From: Hysterangium stoloniferum
Lineage: Eukaryota; Basidiomycota; Agaricomycetes; Hysterangiales; Hysterangiaceae
Direction of reading: 5' to 3'
Assembly: GCA_015178975.1 (NCBI GenBank)
Contig: WHVD01000033.1
Location: 682,001-746,000 of the forward strand
DNA length: 64,000 bases
Shown here: one piece after another, positions 16,608 through 35,054 of the stretch
Layout of the letters: each line of letters begins with the position of its first letter
How positions within the stretch are numbered: the first letter of the stretch is position 1
Program-made: the position numbers and the translations under genes
The notes under the pieces: generated by a model
Told to the model about the DNA's origin: nothing
What the model saw: the letters and a program-made list of their open reading frames with translations, nothing else
Database searches by the model: none

Positions 16608-17906
16608 TTATATATCCAGATCCTCGTCAGGGTCATCCTCATCGATATCGTCTGCTGAATCTGGATCATAGAAAATTGCACTAGGTTTCGAGTCACTCAA
16701 AACAGGTTGACCTGCATGGTTTTAACGTATTAGTGAGGAGTGTGATAAAAACATAGCTAAATAGCAGCACACCTTCGTGGGCGTATGGAAGAGGAACCTG
16801 AGCTCGCGATTGTTGCTGTGACTCTGTCAGACTTAGATTAAATGAAAGATTTTGCGTTGGATCTGCCTCTGGTTTGAATTGCTGTTGCATGGCGGTCAGT
16901 ACTTCAAATACACGAGTAAAACTTATAAATGAATCACAACGTACACTTCCAGCCCTTTTTGTCCACATCACGTTCAACAATTCCAATTCTTCCAATTTAC
17001 ACGGCCGATTCTTACCCCACCCTTCTAGGGTCCTGTCAACTGTCTTCCGCCCAGTAGCGCTTCTTATGAATACCTCAACAACGGTTTCATCTTCCCATCC
17101 AGAGCCGTTCGCACCCCATATTAAATGTTCCGCCTCGCCTCTACTTGTCAGCCCAGAGAAAAGGGGCCAAAATTTGGTTACTGGTGAGTGAGGGGGAGGT
17201 AATGTGAGGTACTCGGTGGATATGTAGAGGAGGAGGGAGGGAGGGTGTAGTATTAGATGTGCGATGGCGGGGGCGAAGGCGGGAGGGATGAGGAGGGGCA
17301 GGAGGAGAGATTGTGAAGGGACAGGAAGGATCATGCGGGATGGTGCTGAAATAAATTGTCATTAGACTAGACGAAATTAAGTTATCGATGTGTGATGTAC
17401 GTACAAGGACGTTCAGAAACATTGGCATGCCACTTTTTGAGAATCTTATAAGCTTGCGCAGGAGATTCAAGGTCATCGCATAGTGTGCTAGGAGAGTCGA
17501 CGAAAAAGTGTACGGGGCAGTCTGGAGCTATGAGCAATGTTTAATACTTTATGTCCAAGTCTCGATTCTCAAAACAATTGCACCTACAATTATCAAGCAC
17601 GCTCTGAACCTCACTCACAAGCCATTCCAGACTCGACACTTCATTCTTGCTGTCCTCATATCCAGGCACCACGCCTGTCCAATCAATAATTCTAACACGC
17701 TGTACATCATTCTCAAGTAATTGTCTTGGAAGCACGTCTGCAGGTGGATGAAGCAGGCAAAGGCATACAATTACCCCGCCTGAGCTATTCTTCAAAATAT
17801 TTTGTACAATCGAGAGCCATGGCGTTGCAAGGTTGTGTTCTATTAGTATGAGGGTTTCTCGTGAGCGTGCGGTAGGGGTGATTATGTTCTCGAGCTGGAG
17901 AGCCAT
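16608..17906 (-). CDS. elp5: Elongator complex subunit Elp5
   Basis: Elp5 is part of the Elp4-5-6 RecA-like ring of Elongator, which modifies wobble uridines of tRNAs. Five exons: 17588-17906, 17405-17527, 16947-17345, 16773-16901 and 16608-16711; the sum is 1074 nt, 357 residues plus stop, with every junction in frame. Recognition rests on the N-terminal region (MALQLENIITPTARSRETLI), VRIIDWTGVV, and the hallmark C-terminus: DPTQNLSFNLSL followed by a short exon ending in an acidic stretch (FYDPDSADDIDEDDPDEDL). Exons 1-4 are duplicated as a broken copy near 24.4-25.4 kb, so this is the functional parent. The gene forms the left edge of the duplicated lectin block. Confidence 0.9.
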
Positions 17907-18497
17907 TTTGGGTTAGGTGACGGGCGTGACAGCTTTATTTTTGAGGAAGTTTAATACTTTGTGCCCACCTCTCACAGTTAGTTAACCTAAGGATGAGCCT
18001 CCGCCGTCTGATCAGGTTAATTTAAGAGCTTTGTGGATCTTATTTTGACGGAATATCGATATATACGAACATGTTGAAATTTTCATCCGGGTCAGCAACG
18101 AGCAGGTGAAAAAGGCAGCAAGATCTGCTGGTGAGTAAAATATATGTGCTAAGTATTGAGTATTATATTAATTGGGACATGTATATCCAATTGTGTCCAC
18201 CTCCTTCAAGAATTCCAAGAGTACCATGATGCTCAACTGGGATTTAACGTTCTGTCATGTATTGCAGAAGTACTACCAGAGGTAAGGAGTTCAACACAGC
18301 TCAATCTATGCCCTTCAAATTCATGCCAGTCCTTTCAGCTGTTATTGACATTAACAATAACGGCGTCTTATTAAATGTATAAATTGTATGGCACCAGCCT
18401 ATACCGCTGTATCCATGTTGCTAAATATTGTTAATTCAGAACACAACCCACTGAAGCATGCTGCGGTTGGCCATGAGCTCCTTCACTCATTTTCTGG
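17907..18497. other. Elp5 promoter side; duplicated non-coding DNA
   Basis: No gene. Much of this stretch recurs at about 25433-26040, showing that the segmental duplication continues from Elp5 into the lectin unit. Confidence 0.6.
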
Positions 18498-18715
18498 CAG
18501 TATTCATCGGATTTCCGCAGTGCACCTCACCGCTAGCCTGTTATTCAATTGCACACTGCCATTCTCCTCTCAGTATCCGCTAATGCGGTTGTTACGAAAC
18601 GTAATCCTCATCTCGCCACAAGGTCAGCAGTATTGTGGCCTATTGAACCTTCTTCTGCTCTTAGAAATGCTCGATCCCATAGTTTTCGTCTATAATGGCA
18701 TTGTCAAATTTTATA
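18498..18715 (+). pseudogene. Relic 5' end of a lectin gene (R1)
   Basis: Diverged copy of the promoter, exon 1 end and intron 1 of the lectin genes. The stretch reading ACGAAACGTAATCCTCATCT followed by CGCCACAAGG..CAGTATTGTGGCCTA lines up with the exon 1/intron 1 border of the intact copies. The signal-peptide part and the lectin domain are gone. Non-functional. Confidence 0.6.
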
Positions 18716-18814
18716 ATACAACGAGTCCTGCGCTTGACATGAATTTATGCACTGCCCAGTATTTGCGGATTTCCGCATTACATCTCACCTCCTCGGACAG
18801 TGATACTAGTTTCT

Positions 18815-18820
18815 TATAAA
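18815..18820 (+). promoter_or_regulatory. TATA box of lectin copy A
   Basis: TATAAA 75 nt upstream of the ATG. The same box, at nearly the same distance (about 70 nt), precedes copies B, C, D and the broken copy E within otherwise conserved promoter sequence. Confidence 0.7.
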
Positions 18821-18889
18821 TGGGACGGTTCTATTATCCACTCTCATTCAACTCTTCAGAGTCGGAGTCGCCGTCAAAGTCCAGACATA

Positions 18890-19764
18890 ATGCATTTCTC
18901 CCTCCTTGCCTTGTTGGCTTGCATTGCTGTTCTTGTACAGTCTGCACCATCCGACAAAGAAGTTGCTGCGAAATGTAAGCCTCGTCTCGCCAAGCTTTGC
19001 AGTTGTAACCTAGGAACTCTTTCTAGTATCGGAAAGGTTTGATCTCACAGTTTTCCCTTTTGTTAGCCATGGCTGATATCATGTCGTTGTACGACAGAGC
19101 TGCAGGTGAGCGCTTGTAAATACTACATTATCTTGATTATACTAATTATACTCAAAAAGTGGAGAGCCCCGCACGGAATACTACTGGTATCCGTTTCTCT
19201 GGGACTGATTACAATCCGGTGACAATACCGATTCCACCTGGAGTAACCCTTTCTTGTAATGCGACGTCATTCGCCCATTTCGATCAAAGAGTTATAATCA
19301 AGTGGGACGGGGTACAGATCGACACCTTCCAAGGCTCAGGCGAAAATGTGATAATGAGGCTGCCCTCTGGAAGTGATGTTCTTATCAGTCAGCCGGACGG
19401 CCAGGCGCACAACATTACGCTCGTGTTCCAGTTCGATGATCGAGGCGGCTCCGGGTTTCGAAATGCAGTCGTCAATCAATCTCCAAGTAAAAGCGTTAGT
19501 GGAACCCAGACTGAGATAACGATCACCTCTGAAGATTCGCAAGACAACGATAACGATGACACCGTCATACGAATCGTACTTGTCAGCTCGCCCACATCCT
19601 CCCTTCCCCCCCCGACTATCCCGGGCACTCCCGTGCCTGTACCGACTCCACAGCCTCTCCCAGGTATCCCGGGTCTGCCCCCTCCCTGGAATTCCAATCG
19701 GTCCGCTCAGATGGGGACAAGAACAGGAATCCCGTTTGCCCAAACCGGAAACGACCCCGAGTAA
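18890..19764 (+). CDS. Secreted LecB/PA-IIL-like lectin, copy A (long form)
   Basis: Three exons: 18890-18974, 19067-19105 and 19160-19764 (85+39+605 nt), giving 242 residues. The N-terminus is a classical signal peptide (MHFSLLALLACIAVLVQSA), followed by a short helical linker and a beta-rich domain starting near residue 48. The domain matches bacterial LecB-type calcium lectins (PA-IIL family): VTIPIPPGVTL aligns with the family's N-terminal strand, DTFQGSGENV with its FxGxG region, and TSEDSQDNDNDDTV with the calcium loop SEDGTDNDYNDAV, keeping E and the D-x-D-x-x-D pattern. Here the loop Asn next to the last Asp is Asp. After the domain comes a proline-rich tail (TIPGTPVPVPTPQPLPGIPG). 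Expected to be secreted and sugar-binding; specificity is unknown. The sequence evidence is motif-level only. Confidence 0.72.
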
Positions 19765-20410
19765 CAGAGTGGTAACCAGAAGGGATGAATTTGGATTTTT
19801 TGTTCCTGTTTCAGGCTCAAATTCGCTTTTCCATCGCTGTATTCTAAAGAAAAACGGAATCATTCGCGTATATATCTTCTTGAATCCGATTTTATTTTCT
19901 CTCCGTTTCTATCTCTCGAGAACCGTGCCATATGAGATTGTACAGAATGTCCAAGTTATTCCTTCATCTGTTCTAACGTATCACGCTACTATACACTTGT
20001 GGCATGCGCATCCCATGAAGAGCTGTCGCGAGTTTTGGATGGACATGATGCTGCTACTCATCTGGCCTCGGTGACTCCATTGAAGCTTTTTCGAAGACTC
20101 TAGGTTCGTCTACATAGTGTAGCAAGTCCGGGGTATTCTTTCCGTCTGACAAATGGTTCGTGAAAATAGGCATCTCTTGAGGAACTTCAAGTCGATTTCT
20201 CATCTTATCTCTTTGTGCTCGGTATTTCAGATAGATTATGCCAATCCTTTGAGCTGTTATTGACATTGACAATAACGGCGCCTTATTAAATGTATAGATT
20301 GTATGGCACCAGCCTATCCCGCTGTATCCATGTTGCTAAATATTGTTAATTCAGAACACAACCCACTGACGCACGCGCGGTTGGCCATGAGCTCCTTCAC
20401 ACATTTTCTG
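19765..20410. other. Conserved 3' flank of lectin copy A
   Basis: Non-coding sequence repeated downstream of copies B, C, D and E, including the segment TCGCGAGTTTTGGATGGACA and its variants. It contains no gene and is part of the amplified unit. Confidence 0.6.
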
Positions 20411-20672
20411 GCAGTATTCATCGGGTTTCCGCACTGCACCTCACCGCTATCCTGGGCTGTCATCCAATCGCACACTGGCATTTTCCGCTTAGTATCCGCT
20501 AAAGCGGTTGCTACGAAATGTAATCCTCATCTCGCCACAAGCTCAGCAGTATTGTGGCCTATTGAACCTTTTTCTGCTCTTAGAAATTCTTAATCCCAGA
20601 GTTTTCGTCTATAATGGGGTTGTCATCGCTGATAATATGACAAGTCATTGTACGACAGCTCCAGGTAAGCGT
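20411..20672 (+). pseudogene. Relic 5' end of a lectin gene (R2)
   Basis: Diverged tandem copy: promoter-like CAGTATTCATCGGGTTTCCG, an exon 1/intron 1 border (GCTACGAAATGTAATCCTCA) and an exon 2-like piece (GCTGATAATATGACAAGTCA ... CCAGGTAAGCG). In intact copies the matching exon reads GCTGATAACATGACATTGTA. No lectin domain follows, so this is a decayed neighbour of copy B. Confidence 0.65.
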
Positions 20673-21016
20673 TCAAGTTGTGAACACTGTACATATAATA
20701 CTCAGCTGACCTTCAAACTTCAGAGTATTGTTTTGGTCTCATTCATTCAGAAGCACTCAGCTGATGATATCACACATCAATCTAACTATATGCTTCTAAT
20801 CCATGCCAGCTCCTGTCAGCAGTTACTCACACTAACAATGACGGCGTCTTATTAAATGCGTGTGGTTGTTCACCAGTTTATAACGTTGCATTCAGATTGT
20901 CAAATCTCATAATACAACGAGTCCTGCGCTTGACATGAATTTATGCACTGCCCAGTATTTGCGGATTTCCGCTGCTCCGCATTACACCTCACCTCCTCGT
21001 AGTGATACTAGTTTCT

Positions 21017-21022
21017 TATAAA
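21017..21022 (+). promoter_or_regulatory. TATA box of lectin copy B
   Basis: TATAAA 70 nt upstream of the copy B start codon, in the promoter block shared by all copies. Confidence 0.7.
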
Positions 21023-21086
21023 TGGGATCTTTCTACTACGCCTCTCTCACTCAACTCTTCAGAGTCGCCGTCAAAGTCCAGACACA

Positions 21087-21868
21087 ATGAATTTCTCCCT
21101 CCTTGCCTTGTTGGCTTGCACTGCTGTTCTTGTACAGTCTGCGCCATCCGACAAAGAAGTTGCTGCGAAATGTAAGCCTCGTCTCGCCAAGCTTTGCAGT
21201 ATTGTAACCTAATGAACTCTTTCTAGTATCGGAAAGGTTTGCTCTCACAGTATTCGCTTATGTTAGCCATGGCTGATAACATGACATTGTACGACAGAGC
21301 TGCAGGTGAGCGCCTCGTCAATACTACGTTATCTTGATTATGCTAATTATACCACAAAGTGACGAGCCCCGCACGGAATACTACTGGTATCCGTTTCTCT
21401 GGGACTAATTACAATCCGGTGACAATACCGATTCCACCTGGAGTAACCCTTGCTTGTGGTGCGAAGTCATTCGCCGACTTCAATCAAAGAGTTATAATCA
21501 AGTGGGACGGGGTGCAGATCGACACCTTCCAAGGCTCAGGCGAAAATGTGCCAATGAGGCTACTCTCTGGAAGTAATATGCTTAACAAACAGTCGGACGG
21601 CCAGGCGCACACCATTACGCTCGTGTTCCAGTTCGATGATCGAGGCGGCTCCGGGTTTCGAAATGCAATCGTCAATCAATCTCCAAGTAATATCGTTACC
21701 GGAAGCGAGGCTGTGATAAAGATCACCTCTGAAGATTCGCAAGACAACGATAACAATGACACGGTCATAGGTATGGTACTTGTCAGCTCGCCCACACCCT
21801 CGTCTCTGCTCGAAAATCTCCTGAACGGGAATAACATCCTGATCCTCAAAAGAGACCCGCTCAGATAG
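21087..21868 (+). CDS. Secreted LecB/PA-IIL-like lectin, copy B (short form)
   Basis: Exons 21087-21171, 21267-21305 and 21360-21868; 210 residues. Same plan as copy A: signal peptide (MNFSLLALLACTAVLVQSA), linker (SMADNMTLYDRAAV) and the LecB-like domain. It differs where function is decided. The calcium loop reads SEDSQDNDNNDTV, matching the bacterial consensus Asn before the last Asp, and the early loop reads SFADFNQ where copy A has SFAHFDQ. The proline-rich tail is replaced by a short end (SPTPSSLLENLL...KRDPLR). Closest sister is copy D. Intact splice sites and frame suggest it is still functional. Confidence 0.72.
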
Positions 21869-22620
21869 GCACAAGAACCGGAATCCCGTTTGTCCAAACC
21901 GGAGTCGACCCCGAGTAACAGAGTGGTAATCAATAGGGATGAATTAGGATTTTTTGTTCGAGTTTCAGACTCAAATTCGCTTTTAACGCTGTATTCTAAA
22001 GAAAAACGGAATCATTCGCACATATATCTTCTTGAATCCACAATTCTATTGTCTCTCCATTTCTATCTCTCGAGGACTGTGCCATATGAGATTATACAGA
22101 ATGTCTAAGTTATTCCTTTTGTCTGTTCTGACGTATCACGCTACTATACATTTGACTTGTGGGATGCGCGTCTCATGAAGAGCTGTCGCAAGTTTCGAAT
22201 GGATATGATGCTGCTACTCATCTGGCCTCGGTTATTCCATTGAAGATCCTTCGAAGACTGTAGTTTCGTCTACATAGTGTAGCAAGTCCGGGATATTCTT
22301 TCCATCTCACAAATGGTTCGTGAAAATAGGCATCTCTTAAGGAACTTCAAGTCGATTTCTCATCTTATCTCTTTGTACTCGGTACGTCGGACAGTTCACA
22401 TAGTGGAACAGCGGTGCGTCTTCGTCTCGCACTCGTCACAAAAAAGGGTTACCTACTCCTAGGACCCACGTACAGCTCTCTGTTCACATTGATATATTAT
22501 ATAATATCGTCCAGATCCCCCCAAAAGCCACTGAATGGGCCACAATTGCCAAGATATTTCATACAGATAATTTATAACTTAAGAAATAACCATTCATGCC
22601 TACTTTCTTTCTCTCCACCT
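21869..22620. other. Conserved 3' flank of lectin copy B
   Basis: Non-coding repeat-unit sequence also found after copies D and E (for example the block at 22430-22660 recurs near 33480-33690 and 34870-35090). It leads directly into an ALDH 3' end on the opposite strand. Confidence 0.6.
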
Positions 22621-23318
22621 TCAGGCAAGCCCATAGACACCTTCGGATGCCGCCGCCGGTGACACGAGGACAACAGTACGGTGTTGGGTGCAGTTGTCAA
22701 TATCAAATCGACCATAACCGCTTTTCCCCCTGAAAATGACCGGTCAATAATTACACTTCAAGTAGACCAAAAGAACAAACCCAAGGCCGTGTGACCCTAA
22801 TTCGGATTCAAAGGCAATCGTCATCGCATTGACCACTACGTGCGCTAGAGTATTTGTTAGACATTGGGGCATTTTGACTGATTTTCTTCTGCACTACATG
22901 CCCGTATCCTGCGAGCAAGCTTTAGACATTTATCCATGTTCCGCGTCCAAATGGCACCCGCAGTCTTATTCGCCAATGCAATGGCTTCTTCCTCGGTATC
23001 AACAACTCTGACCACAAAGACAGGGCCAAACGTTTCTTGTCCAAATGGGTCAGTCCTCTTCAACATCAGAAATGGTATGGGGCTGTAATCCGGCATTCTG
23101 GGCGGTGAGGTCTCCTACTAAATGTTTCCCTCCCCTCTCTTTTGCGTCGGCGAGTAATGCGGCTGCGCGCTTGGCTGCAGCTGCAGTGACGAGGGGAGCC
23201 AAAGGACAGGTTGGTTTTGTCCCAGCTTTCATGGTGCTTGCGATTGCAGTCAGCGTTTGGAGAAGGGGCACCGACACCTCTCTGCACGATTACTCGTTCT
23301 GTGGAGATGCATACCTAA
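22621..23318 (-). pseudogene. Aldehyde dehydrogenase 3' fragment (pseudogene)
   Basis: Corresponds to the last three exons of the intact ALDH at 35055-36859, with the homologous stop codon at 22621-22623. It keeps [20 protein letters not shown] and [20 protein letters not shown] but has small deletions (one between ANKT and [11 protein letters not shown]) and frame breaks. The homology ends at ATACCTAA, where a Copia LTR begins. The 5' two thirds, with the catalytic cysteine, are missing. Confidence 0.88.
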
Positions 23319-23573
23319 TGTTAGAAGGTAAGACCTAATAGTAAACTAGGACACATGAGTACTTGTAAGATACACGTTGAGAGATAAAACGACTCGCCTC
23401 AGTCTCGTATGTATGTATAACAGACTGAGGTGTGAGGTTGTGTTATGTACGGTATATATATTAATGATAATATTGGAAGGCATTGTATAGCCGCATGTTC
23501 CTATGAGAATGAAGGCGTTGTATGGCCAAGTAATTCTAATATAGCTATAGGGTTTTTACGATGTTATCCAACA
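23319..23573 (-). repeat. Copia-type 3' LTR
   Basis: On the minus strand it starts TGTTGGATAAC just after a purine-rich tract (GAGGAGGGGC) that ends the element's coding region, and ends CTAACA, giving near-inverted TG..CA ends. The outer edge falls exactly where homology between the ALDH fragment and the intact ALDH stops. The 5' LTR is missing, so no target duplication can be checked. Confidence 0.6.
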
Positions 23574-24423
23574 CTCCTCACTGTAGAAGCCCCTCCTCAC
23601 ATGGAAGTCTGGTTATTTAAGTCCCAAGAAGTCCCTAAGTTTAATGAATTCCGAAGGTTCCAAGGCCTTAGTAAAGACATGGGAAATGTTGTTTGCAGTG
23701 GTGATGTAACTGATCGATAATTCGCCGTCATGGACACGTTCATGAAGAAAATAATACTTGATGTCGATGTGCTTTACCCAAGAGTGCAGTAGAGGATCTT
23801 CAGATAAATTGATGGTGGCATTGTTGTTGCAGAAGATGGTTGTGCCAGTGGTACAAGGAAAGTTAAGGCCCATGAGTAAAGCACAGAGCCAGGTACCTTC
23901 CTTGACAGCTTTGAAAGCTGCAAGATATTCTGCCTCACAGGAGGAAGCTGCGACGGTTTTTGCTTCTTAGTGGCCCAGGAGATCACACGGGAACCCAAGG
24001 TAGAGGTGTAACCACTAATGCTGTGGAAAGTATCAAGGCGGTTTGCCCAATCGTCTGTGTATCCAGCCAAGGTGATAGTGTGAAGGCCACCTAGACACAG
24101 GCGAAGCTTCCTAGTACCTTTTAAATACCTAACAACCCGACTAGTGGCATTCCAGTACAAGGTGGAATAGCTGTCAAGAAATTTGGATAATTGTTGAACT
24201 GCAAAGGAAATGTTGGGTCTGGTAGAGATTGTCAAATAAAGGAGACACCGAACCAAAGATCTGTAAGGGAGTTTGAGCAGTTCTGTGAGATGATTCTTGG
24301 ACAGAGTTCTGTGATTGAAACGGCGAAGTTTGAGTCCATTGGAGTAGAAACAATTGATGCAGCATTTTGTCCGAATTGGCAGATGATTTTATCAATGAGG
24401 GCAGTCTGAGAGAGGTATAATTC
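23574..24423 (-). mobile_element. Truncated Copia retrotransposon (pol 3' end)
   Basis: The minus strand encodes the C-terminal part of Copia pol: VRCLLYLTISTRPNISFAVQ, LDSYSTLYWNATSRVVRYLK, the RNase H start TLAGYTDDWANRLDTFHSIS, and the end KHIDIKYYFLHERV...ISHVFTKALEPSEF. A frameshift follows SWATKKQK, so the fragment is dead. The upstream side is cut off where the Elp5 pseudogene begins (about 24424). Confidence 0.85.
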
Positions 24424-25432
24424 TGCGTTGGATCTGTCTCTGGTTTGAATTGCTGTTGCATGGCGGTCAGTACTTCAAATGCACGAGTAAAACCTATAAA
24501 TGAATCACAACGTACACTTCCGGCCCTTTTTGTCACGGCCGATTCTTACACCACCCCTCTAGGGTACTGTCAACTGTCTTCCGTCCGGTAGCGCTTCTTA
24601 TGAATACCTCAACAACGGTTTCATCTTCCCATCCAGAGCCGTTCGCACCCCATATTAAATGTTCCGTCTCGCCTCTACTTGTCAGCCCAGAGAAAAGGGG
24701 CCAAAATTTGGTACTGGTGAGTGAGGGGGAGGTAATGTGAGGTAGTCGGTGGATATGTAGAGGAGAAGGGAGGGTGGGTGTAGTATTAGATGTGCGATGG
24801 CGGTGGCGAAGGCGGGAGGGATGAGCAGGGGCAGGAGGAGAGATTGCGAAGGGACGGGAAGGATCATGCGGGATGGTGCTGAAATAAATTGTCATTAGAC
24901 TAGACGAAAAATCGATGTGTGATGTACGTACAAGGACGTTCAGAAACATTGGCATGCCGCTTTTTGAGAGCCTTATACGCTTGCGCAGGAGATTCAAGGT
25001 CATCGCATAGTGTGCTCGGAAAGTCGACGAAAAAGTGTACGGGGCAGTTTGGAGCTATGAGCAACGTTCAATACTTTATGTCCAAGTCTCGATTCTCAAA
25101 ACAATTGGACCTACAATTATCAAGCACGCTCTGAACCTCACTCACAACCGTTTCCAGACTCGACACCTCACCCTTACTGTCCTCATATCCAGACACCACG
25201 CCTGTCCAATCAATAATTCTAACACGCTGCACATCATTCTCAAGTAATTGTCTTGGAAGCACGTCTGCAGGTGAATGAAGCAGACAAAGGCATACAATTA
25301 CTCCGCATGAGCTATTCTTCAAGATATGTTGTACAATTGAGAGCCATGGCTTGCAAGGTTGTGTTGTATAAGTATGAGGGTTTCTCGTGAGCGTGCGGTA
25401 GGGGTGCTTATGTTCTCGAGCTGGAGAGCCAT
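24424..25432 (-). pseudogene. Elp5 pseudogene (segmental duplicate)
   Basis: Near-identical copy of exons 1-4 and introns of the intact Elp5 gene at 16608-17906. It begins with MALQLEN but loses frame within exon 1 through one-base deletions (for example GCCATGGCTTGC against GCCATGGCGTTGC), lacks about 45 nt of exon 3 including the KLEELELLNV codons, and has no final acidic exon because it is joined to the Copia fragment inside exon 4. Confidence 0.92.
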
Positions 25433-26042
25433 TTTAGGTTAGGTGGGTGACGGGCGTGGCAGCTTTATTTTTACTTTGGTAATATTCTTTTTGAGGAAGT
25501 TTAATGCTTTGCGTTCACGGTGAGTTAACCTAGTAATGAGCCTTCGTCGTCTGATCAGGTTAATTCAAGAGCTTTGTGGATCCTATTCCGATGGAATATC
25601 GATATATACTAACATGTTGAAATTTTCATTTAAGTGACAAAGGCTGCATGGGTGAAAAAAGCAGCAAGATCTGCTGGCGAGTAAAATATATGTGCTAAGT
25701 ATTTGGTATTATATTAATTGGCACATGTGTATCCAATTGTGTCCACTTCCTTCAAGAATTCCAAAGTACCATGATGTTCAACTGGGGTTTAACGTTCTGT
25801 CATGTATTGCAGAAGTACTACCAGAGGTAAGGAGTTCAAAACAGCTCAATCTATGCGCTTCAAATTCATCCCAGTCCTTTCAGCTGTTATTAACATTAAC
25901 AATAAAGGCGTCTTATTAAATGTATAATATGTATGACACCAGCTTATACCGCTGGTATTCATGTTGTTAAATATTGTTAATTCAGAACACAACCCACTGA
26001 ACCATGCTGCGGTAGGTCATGAGCTCCTTCACTCATTTTCTG
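25433..26042. other. Duplicated non-coding flank
   Basis: Copy of the 17907-18497 region; no gene. Small indels separate the two copies. Confidence 0.6.
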
Positions 26043-26300
26043 GTAGTATTCATCGGATTTCCGCATTGCACCTCACCGCTAGCCTGGGCTGTTATTCAAT
26101 TGCACACTGGCATTCTCCGCTTAGTATCCGCCAGTTGCTACGAAACGTAATCCTCATTTCGCCACAAGCTCAGCAGTATTGTGGCCTATTGAACCTTTTT
26201 CTGCTCTTAGAAATGCTTGATCCCAGAGTTTTCGTCTATAAGGGCGTTGTCATCACTGATAATATGACAAATCACTGTACGACAGCTGCAGGTAAGCGTT
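26043..26300 (+). pseudogene. Relic 5' end of a lectin gene (R3)
   Basis: Same decayed exon 1/intron 1/exon 2 signature as R2 (GCTACGAAACGTAATCCTCA; CACTGATAATATGACAAATC; CAGCTGCAGGTAAGCG). It sits upstream of intact copy C just as R1 sits upstream of copy A. Confidence 0.65.
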
Positions 26301-26645
26301 CAAGTTGTGAACACTGTACATATAATACTCAGCTGACCTTCAACCTTCACAGTATTGTTTTGGTCTCATTCATTCAGAGTCACTCAACTAATGATATCAC
26401 ACCTCAATCTAAGTATATGCTTCTAATCCATGCCAGCTCCTGTCAGCAGTCACTCGCACTAACAATGACGGCGTCTTATTCAATGCGTGTGGTTGTTCAC
26501 CAGTTTATAACGTTGCATTCAGATTGTCAAATTTTATAACGCAGCGCGTCCTACGCATGACATGAATTTATGCACTGCCCAGTATTTGCGGAATTCCGCT
26601 GCTCCGCATTACACCTCACCTCCTCAGATAGTGATACTAGTTTCG

Positions 26646-26651
26646 TATAAA
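26646..26651 (+). promoter_or_regulatory. TATA box of lectin copy C
   Basis: TATAAA 70 nt upstream of the copy C start codon. Confidence 0.7.
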
Positions 26652-26715
26652 TGTGGGGGGTTCTACTACGCCTCTCTCATTCAACTCTTCAGAGTCGCCA
26701 TCAAAGCCAGACCCA

Positions 26716-27618
26716 ATGCATTTCTCTCTCCTTGCCTTGTTGGCTTGCACTGCTGTTCTTGTACAGTCTGCGCCACCCGACAAAGAAGTTGCTGCGAAAT
26801 GTAAGCCTCGTCTCGCCAAGCTTTGCAGTATTGTAACCTAATGAACTCTGTCTAGTATCGGAAAGGTTTGATCTCACAGTTTTCCCTTTTGTTAGCCATG
26901 GCTGATATCATGTCGTTGTACAACAGAGCTGCAGGTGAGCGCCTTGTAAATACTACATTATCTTGATTATACTAATTGTACTCAAAAAGTGGAGAGCCCC
27001 GCACGGAATACTACTGGTATCCGTTTCTCTGGGACTGATTACAATCCGGTGACAATACCGATTCCACCTGGAGTAACCCTTTCTTGTAATGCGACGTCAT
27101 TCGCCCACTTCGATCAAAGGGTTATAATAAAGTGGGACGGGGTACAGATCGACACCTTCCAAGGCTCAGGCGAAAATGTGATAATGAGGCTGCCCTCTGG
27201 AAGTGATGTGCTTATCAGTCAGCCGGACGCCCAGGCGCACAACATTACGCTCGTGTTCCAGTTCGATGATCGAGGCGGCTCCGGGTTTCGAAATGCAGTC
27301 GTCAATCAATCTCCAAGTAAAAGCGTTAGTGGAACCCAGACTGAGATAACGATCACCTCTGAAGATTCGCAAGACAACGATAACGATGACACCGTCATAC
27401 GAATCGTACTTGTCAGCTCGCCCACATCCTCCCTTCCCCCCCCGACTATCCCGGGTACTCCCGTGCCTGTACCGACTCCACAGCCTCTCCCGGGTATCCC
27501 GGCTCTGCCCCCTCCCTGGAATTCCAATCGGTCCGCTCAGATGGGGACAAGAACAGGAATCCCGTTTGTCCAAACCGGAAACGACCCCGAGGAACAGAGT
27601 GGTACCCAGAAGGGATGA
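26716..27618 (+). CDS. Secreted LecB/PA-IIL-like lectin, copy C (long form)
   Basis: Exons 26716-26800, 26896-26934 and 26990-27618; 250 residues. Nearly identical to copy A through signal peptide (MHFSLLALLACTAVLVQSA), linker and lectin domain, including the SEDSQDNDNDDTV calcium loop and the SFAHFDQ loop. The proline-rich tail is retained and runs eight residues further because the stop used by copy A (GAG TAA) reads GAG GAA here. It arose with copy A by the segmental duplication that also copied Elp5. Frame and splice sites are intact. Confidence 0.72.
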
Positions 27619-28241
27619 ATTTGGATTTTTTGTTCCTGTTTCAGGCTCAAATTCGCTTCTCCATCGCTGTATTCTAAAGAAAAACGGAATCATTCGCGCA
27701 TATATCTTCTTGAATCCGATTTTATTTTCTCTCAGTTTCTATCTCTCGAGAACCGTGCCATATGAGATTGTACAGAATGTCCAAGTTATTCCTTCATCTG
27801 TTCTAACGTATCACGCTACTATACACTTGTGGCATGCGCGTCTCATGAAGAGCTGTCGCGAGTTTTGGATGGACATGATGCTGCTACTCATCTGGCCTCG
27901 GTGACTCCATTGAAGCTTTTTCGAAGACTCTAGTTTCGTCTACATAATGTAGCAAGTCCGGGGTATTCTTTCCGTCTGACAAATGGTTCGTGAAAATAGG
28001 CATCTCTTGAGGAACTTCAAGTCGATTTCTCATCTTATCTCTTTGTGCTCGGTATTTCAGATAGATTATGCCAATCCTTTGAGCTGTTATTGACATTGAC
28101 AATAACGGCGCCTTATTAAATGTATAGATTGTATGGCACCAGCCTATCCCGCTGTATCCATGTTGCTAAATATTGTTAATTCAGAACACAACCCACTGAC
28201 GCACGCTGCGGTTGGCCATGAGCTCCTTCACACATTTTCTG
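27619..28241. other. Conserved 3' flank of lectin copy C
   Basis: Non-coding; nearly identical to 19765-20410 downstream of copy A. Confidence 0.6.
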
Positions 28242-28502
28242 GCAGTATTCATCGGGTTTCCGCACTGCACCTCACCGCTATCCTGGGCTGTCATCCAATC
28301 GCACACTGGCATTTTCCGCTTAGTATCCGCTAAAGCGGTTGCTACGAAACGTAATCCTCATCTCGCCACAAGCTCAGCAGTATTGTGGCCTATTGAACCT
28401 TTTTCTGGTCTTAGAAATGCTTGATCCCAGAGTTTTCGTCTATAATGGGGTTGTCATCGCTGATAATATGACAAGTCATTGTACGACAGCTCCAGGTAAG
28501 CG
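28242..28502 (+). pseudogene. Relic 5' end of a lectin gene (R4)
   Basis: Near-identical to R2 (20411-20672), with the same decayed exon 1/intron 1 and exon 2 pieces. A Harbinger transposon interrupts the sequence about 60 bp downstream. Confidence 0.65.
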
Positions 28503-28563
28503 TTCAAGTTGTGAACACTGTACATATAATACTCAGCTGATGATATCACACATCAATCTAACT

Positions 28564-28593
28564 AGAGAGTATTTGCAACTAATATATATTAGC
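28564..28593 (+). repeat. Harbinger left terminal inverted repeat
   Basis: The first 20-21 bases match, inverted, the right end at 31785-31805. The first 30 bases recur identically at 44484-44513. Confidence 0.85.
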
Positions 28594-28749
28594 GTTTTTT
28601 GATCCGATATTATGTTGGATAATATTGGCACCTGTGGTACTTAGTATTCAACATTAGTTGTAGCATAATTATGTCTGTCACGCAGTCAAGACCATTGAGA
28701 AAAACACTCTCCAGGCGACAGAAGGCCCTCATTGCCAGTACTATTGCCA

Positions 28750-29938
28750 ATGTCTTTATCCAACGTTGCACAGCACAGCCTCTCACTGCATCACCCATTT
28801 TGTTCCCCACTATCCAACTCCAACTTGACGATGCAGCCAATGTTGCAACTCTTGCAACCATTTCTGCACTACCCAAGCAACGACCTCGGCCAGATCAGGG
28901 AGGAGAGGATTACTGTGGACTATCTGAACAGGCTTGGGCGGTTGGGGTGTCTTTGGGCATTCAGGTGCGTATGGATATTTTTTGATTTGATGACCATTGC
29001 TAACGTATTTATATAGATTCACAGCAGATGAGCTCATACTATTGAGCCAAATCCTTGAGATCCCAGATCCCCTTATCACTCCTAACTGCAACAAAGCCAC
29101 TGCTGTCGAGGCGTTCACACTTCTTTGTGCACGATTGCGTAGCCCAGAGGACCAGTGGGCTCTATCTGCCAAATATAACTTGTCGCAGGGTGTCATCTCT
29201 GATCTCATCAACTCCACAGCGAAATTTCTCAACAACCGGTGGGATCATCTACTAGACTGGGATACAGAAGGGGTTGTCAACCCGGATCGTCTTCAAGAAT
29301 ATGCCGAAGCCATTCATAACTTTGGAGCACCCACATCTACAATATTCGGCTTCATCAATTGCACAATCCGTCCCACTTGTCGACCAGGTGAATTTCAGGA
29401 GCTTGTGTACACTGGCTACAAGAAGTGCCACGGCATGAAGTTCCAAGGCATTGTAGCCCCCAACGGGCTAATGGTACATCTCAGCGGACCATTTCGTGCC
29501 CCTCAAAATGATGTGGGAGTTCTAGCTGAGAGCGGGCTCCTAGCGATGTTAGAGCAGAAGGCGATCCAACCAGGATCGACTTTAGATGACCCCCCTGAGC
29601 GCCGATACTTTCAGATCTATGGAGATTCGGCATATGGCACAAGTCCAGTCATGGTGAGCTCATACACTGCAGTTGCACCACTCTCTGAAGAACAGCGTGC
29701 ATGGAACACGGTAATGGGTAGGGTGTGCATTTCAGTGGAGCATGGATTTGGCCTCGTCCTTCAGGACTGGCCATTTCTCAATTCAGTTGCGAAGCAGAAG
29801 ATATTGGGGACACAGTGTGGAACAATGTATCGCATTGGTGTCCTATTGTGCAACGCCCATGCATGTCTCACTCCAAATCAAACATCTATTCGTTATGGTT
29901 GCATGCCACCAACTGTAGATATATATTTTCATGATTAA
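28750..29938 (+). CDS. Harbinger (DDE_Tnp_4/HARB1-type) transposase
   Basis: Two exons joined by a 52-nt intron (28965-29016): GQIREERITVDYLNRLGRL then FTADELILLSQIL. The catalytic core is clear: IFGFINCTIRPTCRPGEFQ, KCHGMKFQGIVAPNGL, RYFQIYGDSAYG (second Asp), ISVEHGFGLVLQDWPFL (Glu) and the end YGCMPPTVDIYFHD. In active relatives the first motif is GFID-x-T-x-RP; here codon 29357-29359 is AAT, so the first catalytic Asp is Asn. An N-terminal frame beginning near 28671 (SRRQKALIASTIANVFIQR) also looks transposase-like but is in another frame, so exon 1 may carry a frameshift and the true start is uncertain. Confidence 0.85.
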
Positions 29939-30065
29939 TTTTACTCTGTTGTATTCCATTGTATTCCTCACAATAAAACAAGTTTCTTTTATCTTTTTTG
30001 TATACAAAATATTATTGAGAAAACCGACTATGATAAAATCACAAGAAAATGGAGAAAAACAAACA

Positions 30066-31307
30066 TCATCCCAACAACCCCTGTCTCAACACATCAATGA
30101 GTGACTTCGCAATCTCATCACTGGCAAGTCGTGCTGCATGTGCCTCCTCTCGTGCTGCACGTGCCTCCAGAATGAACGCTTCTGTCTGCTTGCATTGCTC
30201 ACTGATCATAACCTCCCTCGCATCCACTGAAGTACGAATGAGGCCGATAATTGACTCGAGTGTGTCTTCACGGCATTTTTTGCTCTTCGAAGTGTGTCGG
30301 CTCGTCAACATTGATATGCCAGAGCCAGAGGAGTCTTCCTGTGCTATGTCAGAATGCCCTGTGGCCGAAAAAAGATCGTCCTGAGTGCGCTTCTTCAGGG
30401 ATCAGCGTGAATGGCCCTTCATCATTGCATCGCGCAAGTTCAAGCCAGCAGTCTTCTGAGCTTCGGCTGCCTAAAAAAAGTGAGTAGAATAAAGATATAA
30501 TATCAAGAACAACATACCAGTTTCACTTTCTCGCGATCAGATTCCCTTGTTTCCTCTGCCAGTTTTTTGATAGCTGCCACAGAATCCAAATGACCTGAGA
30601 TGGCAGTGAAAAGACCTGCATCACGAGCGAGAGAATTCCGTGTGTTAACACCTCGAGTCTAATAGAGTTGTTAAATAAAATACATAAAGAAAAAAAAAAC
30701 GCACCTCAACAGCTTTCAAGAGACTGTACACCTTGTTTTTCAGTGTATCAGCTGAACGTCCCTCACATGCATTAGCCTGTTTGACCAAAACTGACACCTC
30801 CTGCCACTTGTCCTTTGACTCCCCACGCGCGCACATCCAGGGGTTGACATTTAGAACTGCACTCAAAAGTGCTTTGAGGTCATTGGTCGTGAACTCCTCC
30901 CTGGGCTTGCGTCGTTGTGTCCTCTTCTTGGTGGGTGAAGAGGCATCCTTGCTGCCATCAGTGAAAATGCCAGTGTCTGACTCACCTTCAAACACTCGTG
31001 GAGATAATGTGACTGAAGTGACCTGGCGATGGCGTGGAGATGACCTGACTGGAGTGACCAGTTGGGGGGCGTTGACCATGGAAGAGGAGTTGGGAGGAAG
31101 AGGGCATATGGGGGTATCCACGTTCATGGGACTATGGGGGTGTGGGACCTGCATGTTGGATGCTTCAGATAAGTATCTTGCATGTTTTGAAGATGGGAGT
31201 GTGGGCGTGAGAGGCATCACATGTGATGATGGGAGAGGAGGTGAGGGCGAGAGAAGGGAAGTGTGATAGAAGTCAGAAGGCGACACGGTCCTGAATTGGT
31301 AGGACAT
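30066..31307 (-). pseudogene. Harbinger Myb/SANT-like protein with in-frame stop
   Basis: Second gene of the element, likely a DNA-binding partner of the transposase. Exons 30705-31307, 30518-30658 and about 30066-30470 join in one frame. The basic region TKKRTQRRKPREEFTTNDLK, followed by NVNPWMCARGESKDKWQEVS, is the Myb-like domain; a Lys/Glu-rich helical tail (IKKLAEETRESDREKVKL, EAFILEARAAREEAHAARLA) follows. A TGA at 30402-30404 cuts the frame after DAMKGHSR; beyond it the same frame stays open for about 110 codons to the stop at 30066-30068. Either a nonsense mutation or a missed intron; no donor is visible there. Confidence 0.75.
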
Positions 31308-31340
31308 GGCACTCAGAATATGTGGACCTTGCAGACGCGT

Positions 31341-31660
31341 GTTAGATTAGGGAGAGGGGATATGGTTTGGATGCACTGAGAAACCTGGAAAACGTGATGA
31401 CAGCCTCAGAAAAGAGTCAGCTAGCATAGAAAACAGAGAGGATGGGTTGAACTTACTGGGGACCACTGGAACACAAAGTGATGGCCTTGAGAACACATGT
31501 GTTGGATTAGGAAGAAGGGATATGGTTTGGATGCACTGAGAAACCTGGAAAACGTGATGACAGCCTCAGAAAAGAGTCAGTTAGCATAGAAAACAGAGGG
31601 GACAGGTTGAACTCACTGGGGACCACTGGAACACAAGGTGATGGCCTTGAGAACACGTCT
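31341..31660. repeat. 160-bp tandem duplication inside Harbinger
   Basis: Two copies in direct tandem (31341-31500 and 31501-31660) differing at a few positions; both contain TATGGTTTGGATGCACTGAG and GGGGACCACTGGAACACAA. Non-coding, between the Myb-like gene and the right end of the element, possibly a subterminal binding region. Confidence 0.85.
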
Positions 31661-31784
31661 GTTAGGGTAAAGAGCCCGGTTTGGAGACTCAGCTGTCACA
31701 TTTTAGGTCACACGTTGGGAAATATTTTGATCGACAATAAATAATAGGCGGAGTTGATGTCCGGATCATTCCGGAGCTGATAAT

Positions 31785-31805
31785 TATTAGTTGCAAATAC
31801 TCTCT
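31785..31805 (-). repeat. Harbinger right terminal inverted repeat
   Basis: Reads ATTAGTTGCAAATACTCTCT on plus (last 20 bases), the complement of the left end; followed by target duplication ACT. Confidence 0.85.
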
Positions 31806-32037
31806 ACTATATGCTTCTAATCCATGCCAGCTCCTGTCAGCAGTTACTCACACTAACAATGACGGCGTCTTATTAAATGCGTGTGGTTGTTCACCAGTTT
31901 ATAACGTTGCATTCAGATTGTCAAATCTCATAATACAACGAGTCCTGCGCTTGACATGAATTTATGCACTGCCCAGTATTTGCGGATTTCCGCTGCTCCG
32001 CATTACACCTCACCTCCTCGTAGTGATACTAGTTTCT

Positions 32038-32043
32038 TATAAA
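32038..32043 (+). promoter_or_regulatory. TATA box of lectin copy D
   Basis: TATAAA 70 nt upstream of the copy D start codon. Confidence 0.7.
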
Positions 32044-32107
32044 TGTGATCGTTCTACTACGCCTCTCTCACTCAACTCTTCAGAGTCGCCGTCAAAGTCC
32101 AGACACA

Positions 32108-32898
32108 ATGAATTTCTCCCTCCTCGCCTTGTTGGCTTGCACTGCTGTTCTTGTACAGTCTGCGCCATCCGACAAAGAAGTTGCTGCGAAATGTAAGCCT
32201 CGTCTCGCCAAGCTTTGCAGTATTGTAACCTAATGAACTCTTTCTAGTATCGAAAAGGTTTGCTCTCACAGTATTCGCTTATGTTAGCCATGGCTGATAA
32301 CATGACATTGTACGACAGAGCTGCAGGTGAGCGCCTTGTCAATACTACGTTATCTTGATTATGCTAATTATACCACAAAGTGACGAGCCCCTCACGGAAT
32401 ACTACTGGTATCCGTTTCTCTGGGACTAATTACAATCCGGTGACAATACCGATTCCACCTGGAGTAACCCTTGCTTGTGGTGCGAAGTCATTCGCCGACT
32501 TCGATCAAAGAGTTATAATCAAGTGGGACGGGGTGCAGATCGACACCTTCCAAGGCTCAGGCGAAAATGTGCCAATGAGGCTACTCTCTGGAAGTAGGAT
32601 GCTTAACAAACAGTCGGACGGCCAGGCGCACACCATTACGCTCGTGTTCCAGTTCGATGATCGAGGCGGCTCCGGGTTTCGAAATGCAATCGTCAATCAA
32701 TCTCCAAGTAAAATCGTTAGCGGAAGCGAGACTGAGATAACGATCACCTCTGAAGATTCGCAAGACAACGATAACAATGACACGGTCATAGGTATGGTAC
32801 TTGTCAGCCCACCCACACCCTCGTCTCTGCTTTCGGATCTCGAAAATCTCCTGAACCCGAATAACATCCTGATCCTCAAAACCGACCCGCTCAGATAG
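32108..32898 (+). CDS. Secreted LecB/PA-IIL-like lectin, copy D (short form)
   Basis: Exons 32108-32192, 32288-32326 and 32381-32898; 213 residues. Sister of copy B: same signal peptide, SMADNMTLYDRAAV linker, SFADFDQ loop and the SEDSQDNDNNDTV calcium loop that best fits the bacterial consensus. The tail is short (PTPSSLLSDLENLLNPNN). All splice sites match those of the other copies. The Harbinger element ends 300 bp upstream without touching the promoter block. Confidence 0.72.
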
Positions 32899-33648
32899 GC
32901 ACAAGAACACGAATCCCGTTTGCCCAAACCGGAATCGACCCCGAGTAACAGAGTGGTAACCAGAAGGGATGAATTTGGATTTTTTGTTCCTGTTTCAGGC
33001 TCAAATTCGCTTTTCCATCGCTGTATTCTAAAGAAAAACGAAATCATTCGCGCATATATCTTCTTGAATCCACAATTTTATCTTCTCTCGGTTTCTATCT
33101 CTCGAGGACCGTGCCATATGAGATTATACAGAATGTCTAAGGTATTCCTTCGTCTGTTCTAACGTATCACGCTACTATATATTTGCCTTGTGGCATGCGC
33201 GTCTCATGAAGAGCTGTCGCGAGTTTTGAAGGGATATGATGCTGCTCCTCATCTGGCCTCGGTTATTCCATTGAGATCCTTCGAAGACTTTAGTTTCGTC
33301 TACATAGTGCAGCAAGTCCGAGATATTCTTTCCGTCTGACAAATGGTCTGTGAAAAGAGGCATCTCCTGAGGAACTTCAAGTCGATTTCTCATCTTATCT
33401 CTTTGTGCTCGGTACTTCTGACAGGTCATGACATGAGTGGAACGGTGTTGCTTCTTTCGTCTTGCACTCGTCACAAAAATTGGTTACCTATGCCTAGGAC
33501 CCACGTACAGCAGCTCTCTGTTCACATTGATATATTATATAATATCGTCCAGACCCCCCAAAAAAGGCTACAATTACCAAGATATTTCATACAGATAGTT
33601 TACAACTTAAGAAATCATTATTCATGCCTACTTTCCTTTTCTCCACCT
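32899..33648. other. Conserved 3' flank of lectin copy D
   Basis: Non-coding repeat-unit sequence, parallel to 21869-22620 after copy B. It again leads into an ALDH 3' end on the opposite strand. Confidence 0.6.
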
Positions 33649-33910
33649 TCAGGCAAGCCCATAGACACCTTCGGACGCCGCCGCTGGTGACACGAGGACA
33701 ACAGTATGGCGTTGGGGGAAGTTGTCAATATCAAATCGACCATAACCGCTTTTTCCCCTGAGAATGGCCGGTCAATAATTATACTTCAAGTAGGGACCAA
33801 AAGGACACACCCAAGGCCATGTGACCCTAACTCGGATTCAAAGGCAATCGTCATCGCATTGACCAGTACGTGCGCTAGAGTATTTGTTAGACATCGGGGC
33901 ATGCCCGTAG
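33649..33910 (-). pseudogene. ALDH 3'-terminal fragment
   Basis: Matches the last two exons and flanking introns of the intact ALDH (35055 to about 35345), including the stop codon at 33649-33651. It lacks most of the intron before the RIRA codons and breaks off at CATGCCCGTAG, where relic R5 starts. Confidence 0.85.
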
Positions 33911-34122
33911 GGCCGTTATTCAATTACACACGGGAATTCTCCGCTTAGTATCGGGGTTGCTATGAAACGTAATCCTCATATCACCACAAGCTCAGCAGTA
34001 TTGTGGCCTACTGAACTTTTTTCTGCTCTTAGAAGTGCTTGATCCCATAGTTTTCGTCTATAATGGTACTGTCATCGCTGATAATATGATAAGTCATTAT
34101 ACGACAGAGCTGCATGTAAGCG
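33911..34122 (+). pseudogene. Relic 5' end of a lectin gene (R5)
   Basis: Decayed exon 1/intron 1 and exon 2 pieces as in R2-R4 (GCTATGAAACGTAATCCTCA; ACGACAGAGCTGCATGTAAG). Confidence 0.6.
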
Positions 34123-34478
34123 TTCGAGTTGTGAACACTATGTACATATAATATTCAACTGACCATCAACCTTCATAGCATTATTTTGGTCTCATTCATT
34201 CAGAGTCACTCAACTGATGATATCACATATCAATCTAAGTATATGCTTCTAATACATGCCAGCTCCTGTCAGCAGTTACTCGCACTGACAATGACAGCGT
34301 CTCATTAAATGCGTATGGTTGTTCACCAGTTTATAACGCTGTATTCAGATTGTCAAGTTTTATAATACAAAATATCAAAGAGTCCTGCCCTTGACATGAA
34401 TTTATGCACTCCCAGTATTTGCGGATTTCCGCTGCTCCGCATTACACCTCACCTCCTCGGATAGTGATACTAGTTTCT

Positions 34479-34484
34479 TATAAA
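34479..34484 (+). promoter_or_regulatory. TATA box of broken lectin copy E
   Basis: TATAAA 70 nt upstream of the copy E start codon, in an otherwise intact promoter block. Confidence 0.65.
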
Positions 34485-34548
34485 TGGGATGGTTCTACTA
34501 CGCCTCTCACATCCAACTCTTCAGAGTCGCCGTCAAAGTCCAGACACA

Positions 34549-34692
34549 ATGCATTTCCCCCTCCTTGCCTTGTTGGCTTGCACTGCTATTCTTGTGCAGT
34601 CTGCGCCACCCGACTCGCGAGTTTTGAAGGGATATGATGCTGCTGCTCATCTGGCCTCGGTTATTCCATTGAAGATCCTTCGAAGACTTTAG
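34549..34692 (+). pseudogene. Lectin copy E: signal peptide fused to 3' flank
   Basis: Begins like the other copies (MHFPLLALLACTAILVQSAP) but after codon 22 jumps into the downstream flank (TCGCGAGTTTTGAAGGGATA), a deletion that removed the linker and the whole lectin domain. The frame then runs through flank sequence to a stop at 34690-34692, giving a 47-residue peptide with a signal sequence. Promoter intact, so it could still be transcribed, but it has no lectin function. Confidence 0.8.
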
Positions 34693-35054
34693 TTTCGTCT
34701 ATATAGTGTAGCAAGTCCAGGATATTCTTTCCGTCTGACAAATGGTTTGTGAAAAGAGGCATCTCCTGAGGAACTTCAAGTCGATTTCTCATGTTATCTC
34801 TTTGTGCTCGGTATTTCAGATAGGTTTTGACATAGTGGAACGGCGTTGCTTCTTTTGTCTTGCATTCGTCACAAAAAAAGGACACCTACTCCTAGGACCC
34901 ACGTACAGCTTTCTGCTCAAATTGATATATTATATAATATCGTCCAGACCCCAAAAAAAGCCATCATGATGGGCTGCAATTGCCAAGATATTCCATACAA
35001 ACAGTTTACAACTTAAAAAGTCATCATTCATGCCTACTTTCTTTCTCTCCACCT
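34693..35054. other. Conserved flank between copy E and ALDH
   Basis: Non-coding repeat-unit sequence shared with 22250-22620 and 33280-33648. Confidence 0.6.

Follow-up and report, generated by a model that had tools for sequence, protein, structure and literature searches.

Probable LecB-type lectin genes in the basidiomycete Hysterangium stoloniferum: predicted fold and calcium site, and amplification

LecB, a lectin of a bacterial pathogen, has been studied intensively, also as a drug target, and binds sugar with unusual strength through bridging calcium ions. Does a false-truffle fungus encode secreted proteins of this kind, and would these proteins bind sugars in the same way? This question is raised by an array of four genes, denoted A to D, in a 64,000-nucleotide stretch of DNA (the window; contig WHVD01000033.1, labelled C257, positions 682001-746000) from the 111 Mb genome of Hysterangium stoloniferum, a species placed by the taxonomy database in Agaricomycetes, Phallomycetidae, Hysterangiales, and described as ectomycorrhizal in the available part of PMC7550596. 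We conclude, with a probability of about 0.78, that A-D encode secreted, calcium-dependent, sugar-binding proteins of the LecB/PA-IIL type that recognize glycans outside the cell. The gene models, predicted fold, family match, ligand positions and amplification were computed, and from these we infer secretion, calcium and sugar binding, sugar preference and role.

Gene models and family membership

The original prediction described four intact three-exon genes, each with a signal peptide, and all four were recovered on the forward strand. The long genes are A (18890..19764; exons 18890-18974, 19067-19105 and 19160-19764), encoding 242 amino acids (aa), and C (26716..27618; exons 26716-26800, 26896-26934 and 26990-27618; 250 aa); the short ones are B (21087..21868; exons 21087-21171, 21267-21305 and 21360-21868; 210 aa) and D (32108..32898; exons 32108-32192, 32288-32326 and 32381-32898; 213 aa). 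The first introns are 92-95 nucleotides long and the second ones 54-55, all bounded by GT..AG. All four N-termini, read by eye, contain a signal-peptide-like hydrophobic stretch, and the motif T-S-E-D-S-Q-D-N-D-N-(D/N)-D-T-V is present in all four proteins. The product of A is letter-identical to the public H. stoloniferum protein P0002. The public protein P0001 corresponds to gene B with an earlier acceptor of the first intron, so that a few residues after the B signal peptide are uncertain; this acceptor lies outside the LecB-fold domain.

Single chains were modelled for the domain of D and for L006, a distant paralog. Residues 11-141 of D aligned to LecB residues 1-112, which places the domain of D at 32413..32805; the domains of A (19192..19584), B (21392..21784) and C (27022..27414) were positioned by the same offset. 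The original prediction had named a fold other than LecB as its refutation; the predicted structure is a beta-sandwich of the LecB type. The top Foldseek match for both models was thrombocorticin, a LecB-fold protein, and identity to solved LecB-family entries is 14-20% in VIA structure alignments.

The best Pfam match for each of the whole proteins A-D is PF07472, with 19.5, 21.0, 19.1 and 20.5 bits, respectively, against a curated cut-off of 21 bits. The cut-off is exceeded by the D domain alone (21.3 bits) and by P0004 (33.5 bits, E 5.6e-8), a protein encoded on the reverse strand at C257:669672-671184, about 11 kb before the window, and annotated as a single protein with two LecB-type loops; the first of its domains (L007) scores 25.2 bits. 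These three scores point to membership in the family. A profile of ten paralogs (alignment A3), searched against PDB, yielded 11 rows at E up to 10. Ten of these are LecB-family lectins, with RS-IIL (we take entry 2chh, RSC3288, to be this protein) scoring best, at E 0.0036; the eleventh is an unrelated entry of SH3 type. Against nine bacterial LecB domains, profile-profile comparison gave an alignment of 93 columns at E 2.3e-6, a value that applies to a single comparison.

Some of the search results weigh against this assignment. Whole A, C and D fall 0.5 to 1.9 bits short of the PF07472 cut-off, so that the expected profile match held for the D domain, L007 and P0004 but narrowly failed for these proteins. 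No Pfam match was obtained for the paralogs P0005 and P0006, both full-length, or for P0008, a related protein, and PF07472 was matched by 6 of the 12 open copies in the genome (see below) at E up to 10. The anticipated recovery of LecB entries from PDB held for the ten-paralog profile but not for gene C alone or the profile of the near-identical set (A1), both of which returned no LecB and only weak, unrelated rows; the diverged paralogs were thus needed for the profile. In NCBIfam, nothing matched A, the domain of D or the metagenome protein P0010, and P0004 gave one weak row, far below the cut-off. Nevertheless, family match, predicted fold and ligand positions support the identification of a LecB/PA-IIL-type domain.

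The calcium and sugar site

According to the available part of PMC8752737, LecB has two calcium ions, with E95, D99, D101, D104, the N103 side chain, the N21 main chain and, from the neighbour, the C-terminal G114 carboxylate as ligands; the sugar is bonded to D96, D99, the same G114 carboxylate and the S23 backbone, and its methyl group contacts T45 and S23. We transferred these residue numbers to the fungal copies by alignment. The predicted calcium/sugar loop is TSEDSQDNDNDDTV in A (19525..19566) and C (27355..27396) and TSEDSQDNDNNDTV in B (21725..21766) and D (32746..32787). Among the 12 open copies, all have D104, 11 have D101, 10 have D96 and 10 have N or D at 103; E95 and D99 are found in 9 each, with E in place of D99 in one further copy. 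All six positions are retained in 8 of the 12, A-D included, down to about 38% identity, with N at 103 in B and D, and D in A and C. By this alignment, A-D appear to carry the side-chain ligands of LecB (E95, D99, D101, N103 and D104), together with the sugar-binding D96.

We propose that, once the signal is cleaved, the protein would form a beta-sandwich of about 130 residues, in which the loop S-E95-D96-S-x-D99-N-D101-N-(N/D)103-D104 (LecB numbers) would hold two calcium ions; a fucose- or mannose-like sugar would be bound by these ions directly through its hydroxyls, and D96 and D99 would accept hydrogen bonds from it. The loop at positions 22-24 sets the sugar preference of LecB; in the fungal proteins it is A-D-F (B and D) or A-H-F (A and C), so that the two kinds may prefer different glycans. 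RS-IIL and the BC2L lectins prefer mannose, and Ala22, shared with RS-IIL, hints weakly at a mannose-type rather than fucose-type preference. The proteins would probably serve to recognize glycans outside the cell, whether on microbes, on grazers or on the host root.

Several features of the site count against binding of this kind. Most ligands are lost in 2 of the 12 open paralogs (L013 and L014), Q and G stand at positions 95 and 101 of L011, and L015 carries E at 99. Position 45, within an invariant G-x-G-E-N, is Glu in all 12 copies and occupies the place of the LecB Thr that contacts the sugar methyl; Glu45 and Phe24 are unlike all nine compared bacterial rows. Moreover, A-D lack a LecB-like chain end at residue 114: 35 residues follow D104 in B, 38 in D, 67 in A and 75 in C, compared with exactly 10 in the paralogs L006, L008 and L015 and in 8 of the 9 bacterial rows (the match clipped the ninth one residue short). 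In the L006 model, the last residue falls in alignments that extend to LecB residue 114. With tails of 35-75 residues, the carboxylate lent by the neighbour would be unusable in the same way in A-D, so that binding would be weaker unless the dimer or the site differs; in the tail-less paralogs, the shared site of the bacterial lectins could still operate. Because the chain end is a feature of the solved LecB site and lies outside the Pfam test, its absence weakens the claim of an identical site, not that of membership.

These differences suggest a tentative scenario, in our estimate more probably wrong than right by a wide measure: the calcium site of A-D has become uncoupled from the neighbour's C-terminus, with tailed copies closing the site within one chain (Glu45 being one candidate), tail-less paralogs keeping the bacterial arrangement and others having dropped calcium. 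Glu45 is also kept in two copies that lack most of the calcium loop, which speaks against it as the carboxylate replacement. If the scenario is true, one fungus displays steps from a shared-site lectin to a diversified secreted repertoire.

Selection signals in the recent copies are mixed. We ran pairwise tests on the 142-codon domain for the ten pairs among A-D and the C201 copy, with equal replacement and silent rates as the null, rounded counts and uncorrected p values. A and C differ by 4 silent changes and a single replacement (w 0.07, p 0.012), the only pair of the ten below 0.05. The 9 replacement and 0 silent changes between B and D make positive selection tempting, but with p 0.125 we rejected it. 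A and B differ by 6.5 silent and 31.5 replacement changes (w 1.51, p 0.317); in this pair the two kinds of change are similarly frequent per site, so that the tests do not demonstrate constraint among the recent copies, another point against conserved binding. For distant paralogs, w is 0.44 (A-L006) and 0.57 (A-L007), at silent divergence (dS) near 1 or above.

The alternative that best withstands these data, although we consider it unlikely, is that the LecB fold was kept and sugar binding abandoned, so that calcium would only stiffen the loop and the proteins would use their tails or other surfaces to act as adhesins, wall proteins or secreted effectors. It would accommodate the long tails, the loss of ligands in L013 and L014, the unusual Glu45 and Phe24, and the near-neutral A/B replacement rate. 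It fits poorly with six intact ligand positions in A-D and in two-thirds of the open copies across such divergence, all the more so because D96 and D99 touch the sugar itself in LecB (PMC8752737) and D96 persists in nearly all of these copies. We therefore favor secreted proteins that bind sugar through calcium.

Paralogs, origin and history of the array

The amplification of the family proposed in the original prediction extends far beyond the window. A whole-genome protein search with D returned 35 rows (11 signal-peptide exons and 24 domain matches), and the domain matches, merged by hand, amount to at least 20 copies distributed over 9 contigs, with one additional weak row that contains stops. 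In this search, the five closest copies are 83-99% identical to D and the others 35-53%. The frame is open over most of the domain in 12 copies, which span 93% to 33% identity to D and mostly retain the TSEDSQDNDN-type motif; the remainder, partial, split or broken by stops (L009, L010, L012, L016-L020, L024, L027, L028 and the C57 row), stand outside the 12-copy counts. A protein search with alignment A5 returned 5 proteins, none new, and a PF07472 search of the H. stoloniferum genome found no match but was silent in 14 of 14 controls too, and hence is no evidence of absence. Two loci, C16:85764-89157 and C176:43943-47294, contain two paralogs each, and in both loci the full calcium loop is present in one paralog and absent from the other. 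A tail-less paralog lies at C16:88738 and a loop-less one at C176:43943. The pairs are near copies of each other, reflecting either recent duplication or two haplotypes.

The phylogeny against bacterial LecB that had been suggested as a check (26 rows, including eight proteobacterial domains) separates the eight proteobacterial lectins from all other rows by a 100/100 branch, which has a length of 1.52 changes per column to either side of the root. The placement of the outside proteins P0008-P0012 is unsure and, with 10 of 23 inner branches open and with such long branches, the tree does not settle the origin. The contig scan behind the bacterial sample started from a Burkholderia domain and found 33 loci, all in Burkholderia, Paraburkholderia or Pseudomonas; the nine aligned bacterial domains comprise eight of these loci and one plasmid copy. 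Thus, the homologs in Nostoc, Kitasatospora and Sorangium that are named in the available part of PMC10481521 fall outside the sample. A contig scan with alignment A4 gave 13 pattern matches and a viral scan 91, with no confirmed relative in either; a plasmid search with an RS-IIL fragment matched three records, and all plasmid matches to P0010 and P0009 were weak and lay under genes annotated otherwise. PF07472 was found in 4 of 398 genomes from the phylum of a Pseudomonas genome, two of the four barely above the cut-off.

Recent capture of a bacterial lecB gene by H. stoloniferum is improbable in our assessment. The family is best known from bacteria, and a 2023 survey raised transfer for Metarhizium and Hirsutella, calling the origin there not clear (PMC10481521, the part available). 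However, the two introns, the spread of about 20 copies over 9 contigs down to 35% identity and the deep split from the proteobacterial lectins indicate an old lineage, and the closest outside proteins are P0008 and P0009, along with the metagenomic P0010-P0012. That the acidic loop arose by chance or convergence on some other, unrelated beta-sandwich (a C2, C1q/TNF-like or CBM36-like calcium fold) is already disfavoured and extremely improbable: PF07472 scores do hover around the cut-off and the C2, C1q and CBM36 folds do appear in the structure-match lists, but they rank lower.

The array itself consists of two duplication units in the same orientation. The left unit, of about 6 kb (16849..22872), includes A and B, and shares three blocks (89, 96.5 and 94% identical) with pieces of the right unit (24420..33902), which includes C, D and an inserted transposon. 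A fifth gene copy (34450..34614, forward strand) retains only the upstream side and the signal-peptide exon; the domain is lost, a deletion having fused the start to the 3' flank at 34615. Five forward-strand relics, each corresponding to the exon 1-exon 2 half of a lectin-family gene, are located at 18575..18688 (71% identity to gene B), 20494..20671, 26133..26298 and 33956..34122 (72% each), and 28325..28502 (73%); these remnants of an older copy are situated beside the present genes. The transposon, a PIF/Harbinger-like element of 3,242 bp (28564-31805) between C and D, has inverted ends and, by eye, a 3-base target repeat; its transposase open reading frame (ORF; 28997-29938) matches DDE_Tnp_4 in Pfam (66.2 bits), and the uninterrupted site is visible near 20785, beside gene B. 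On the reverse strand, 22860-23096 is a fragment that matches the later portion of aldehyde dehydrogenase (PF00171, 42.3 bits); its DNA recurs at 91% identity within 34615-35771, along with the lectin duplications; the reverse-strand ORF at 23774-24256 resembles, by eye, a piece of a Ty1/copia retrotransposon, with no Pfam match at E 0.01.

Comparison with known lectins

The closest outside proteins, P0008-P0012, have G-S-G-E and an S-E-D-S-x-D loop in common with A-D, and all five carry a precomputed PF07472 label. In our Pfam scan of three of these, P0008 gave no match to any family and P0009 and P0010 scored below the cut-off. P0008 starts with a signal-peptide-like stretch, and P0009-P0012, by eye, do not. 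The metagenome proteins P0010-P0012 contain GSGEN and TSEDSSDGDFND, and P0010 weakly matches DUF4114 (18.3 bits, cut-off 27). Within H. stoloniferum, the precomputed label is carried by P0001-P0004 but not by P0005-P0007, that is, by 4 of the 7 proteins found, which makes the link to LecB visible to any database user; the public records name these proteins hypothetical.

Thrombocorticin (ThC; PDB 7f9j, 7f9f and 7f91), isolated from a marine sponge, has the LecB fold and binds fucose in a calcium-dependent manner, according to the available part of PMC9700728. This homodimer of 131-residue chains shows 14-19% identity to the fungal models in VIA alignments and was not among the rows of the PDB sequence and profile searches.

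The main text of a survey of fungal lectins, PMC8227253, as far as available, mentions neither LecB, PA-IIL nor Hysterangi, and we found no publication on a basidiomycete LecB in the main texts of the open-licence literature searched. Within that literature, as far as its texts were available, fungal LecB proteins are reported only from Metarhizium and Hirsutella. Like the H. stoloniferum set, the homologs in these two genera are fungal and belong to PF07472, but the two genera are ascomycete insect parasites and their homologs are about 40% similar to bacterial proteins (PMC10481521, the part available), whereas the H. stoloniferum set is basidiomycete and amplified; this comparison is by description.

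With LecB/PA-IIL of Pseudomonas aeruginosa, RS-IIL, CV-IIL, BC2L-A and BC2L-C, the fungal set shares PF07472, the predicted fold and the loop. Unlike the bacterial family, it is eukaryotic and intron-bearing, with a signal peptide and extra residues before the domain, a longer middle region, and G-S-G-E-N at positions 42-46; positions 22-24 are A-D-F or A-H-F, the chains of A-D continue past residue 114, and identity to the solved entries is 14-20%. A large, old, secreted fungal branch would broaden the known sequence range of LecB and yield natural variants that have or lack each ligand; its proteins would also be candidates for recognition or defence in an ectomycorrhizal fungus. The predicted fold and loop were already known; new is a basidiomycete LecB lineage, absent from the papers searched, that has an altered chain end and is amplified and partly decaying.

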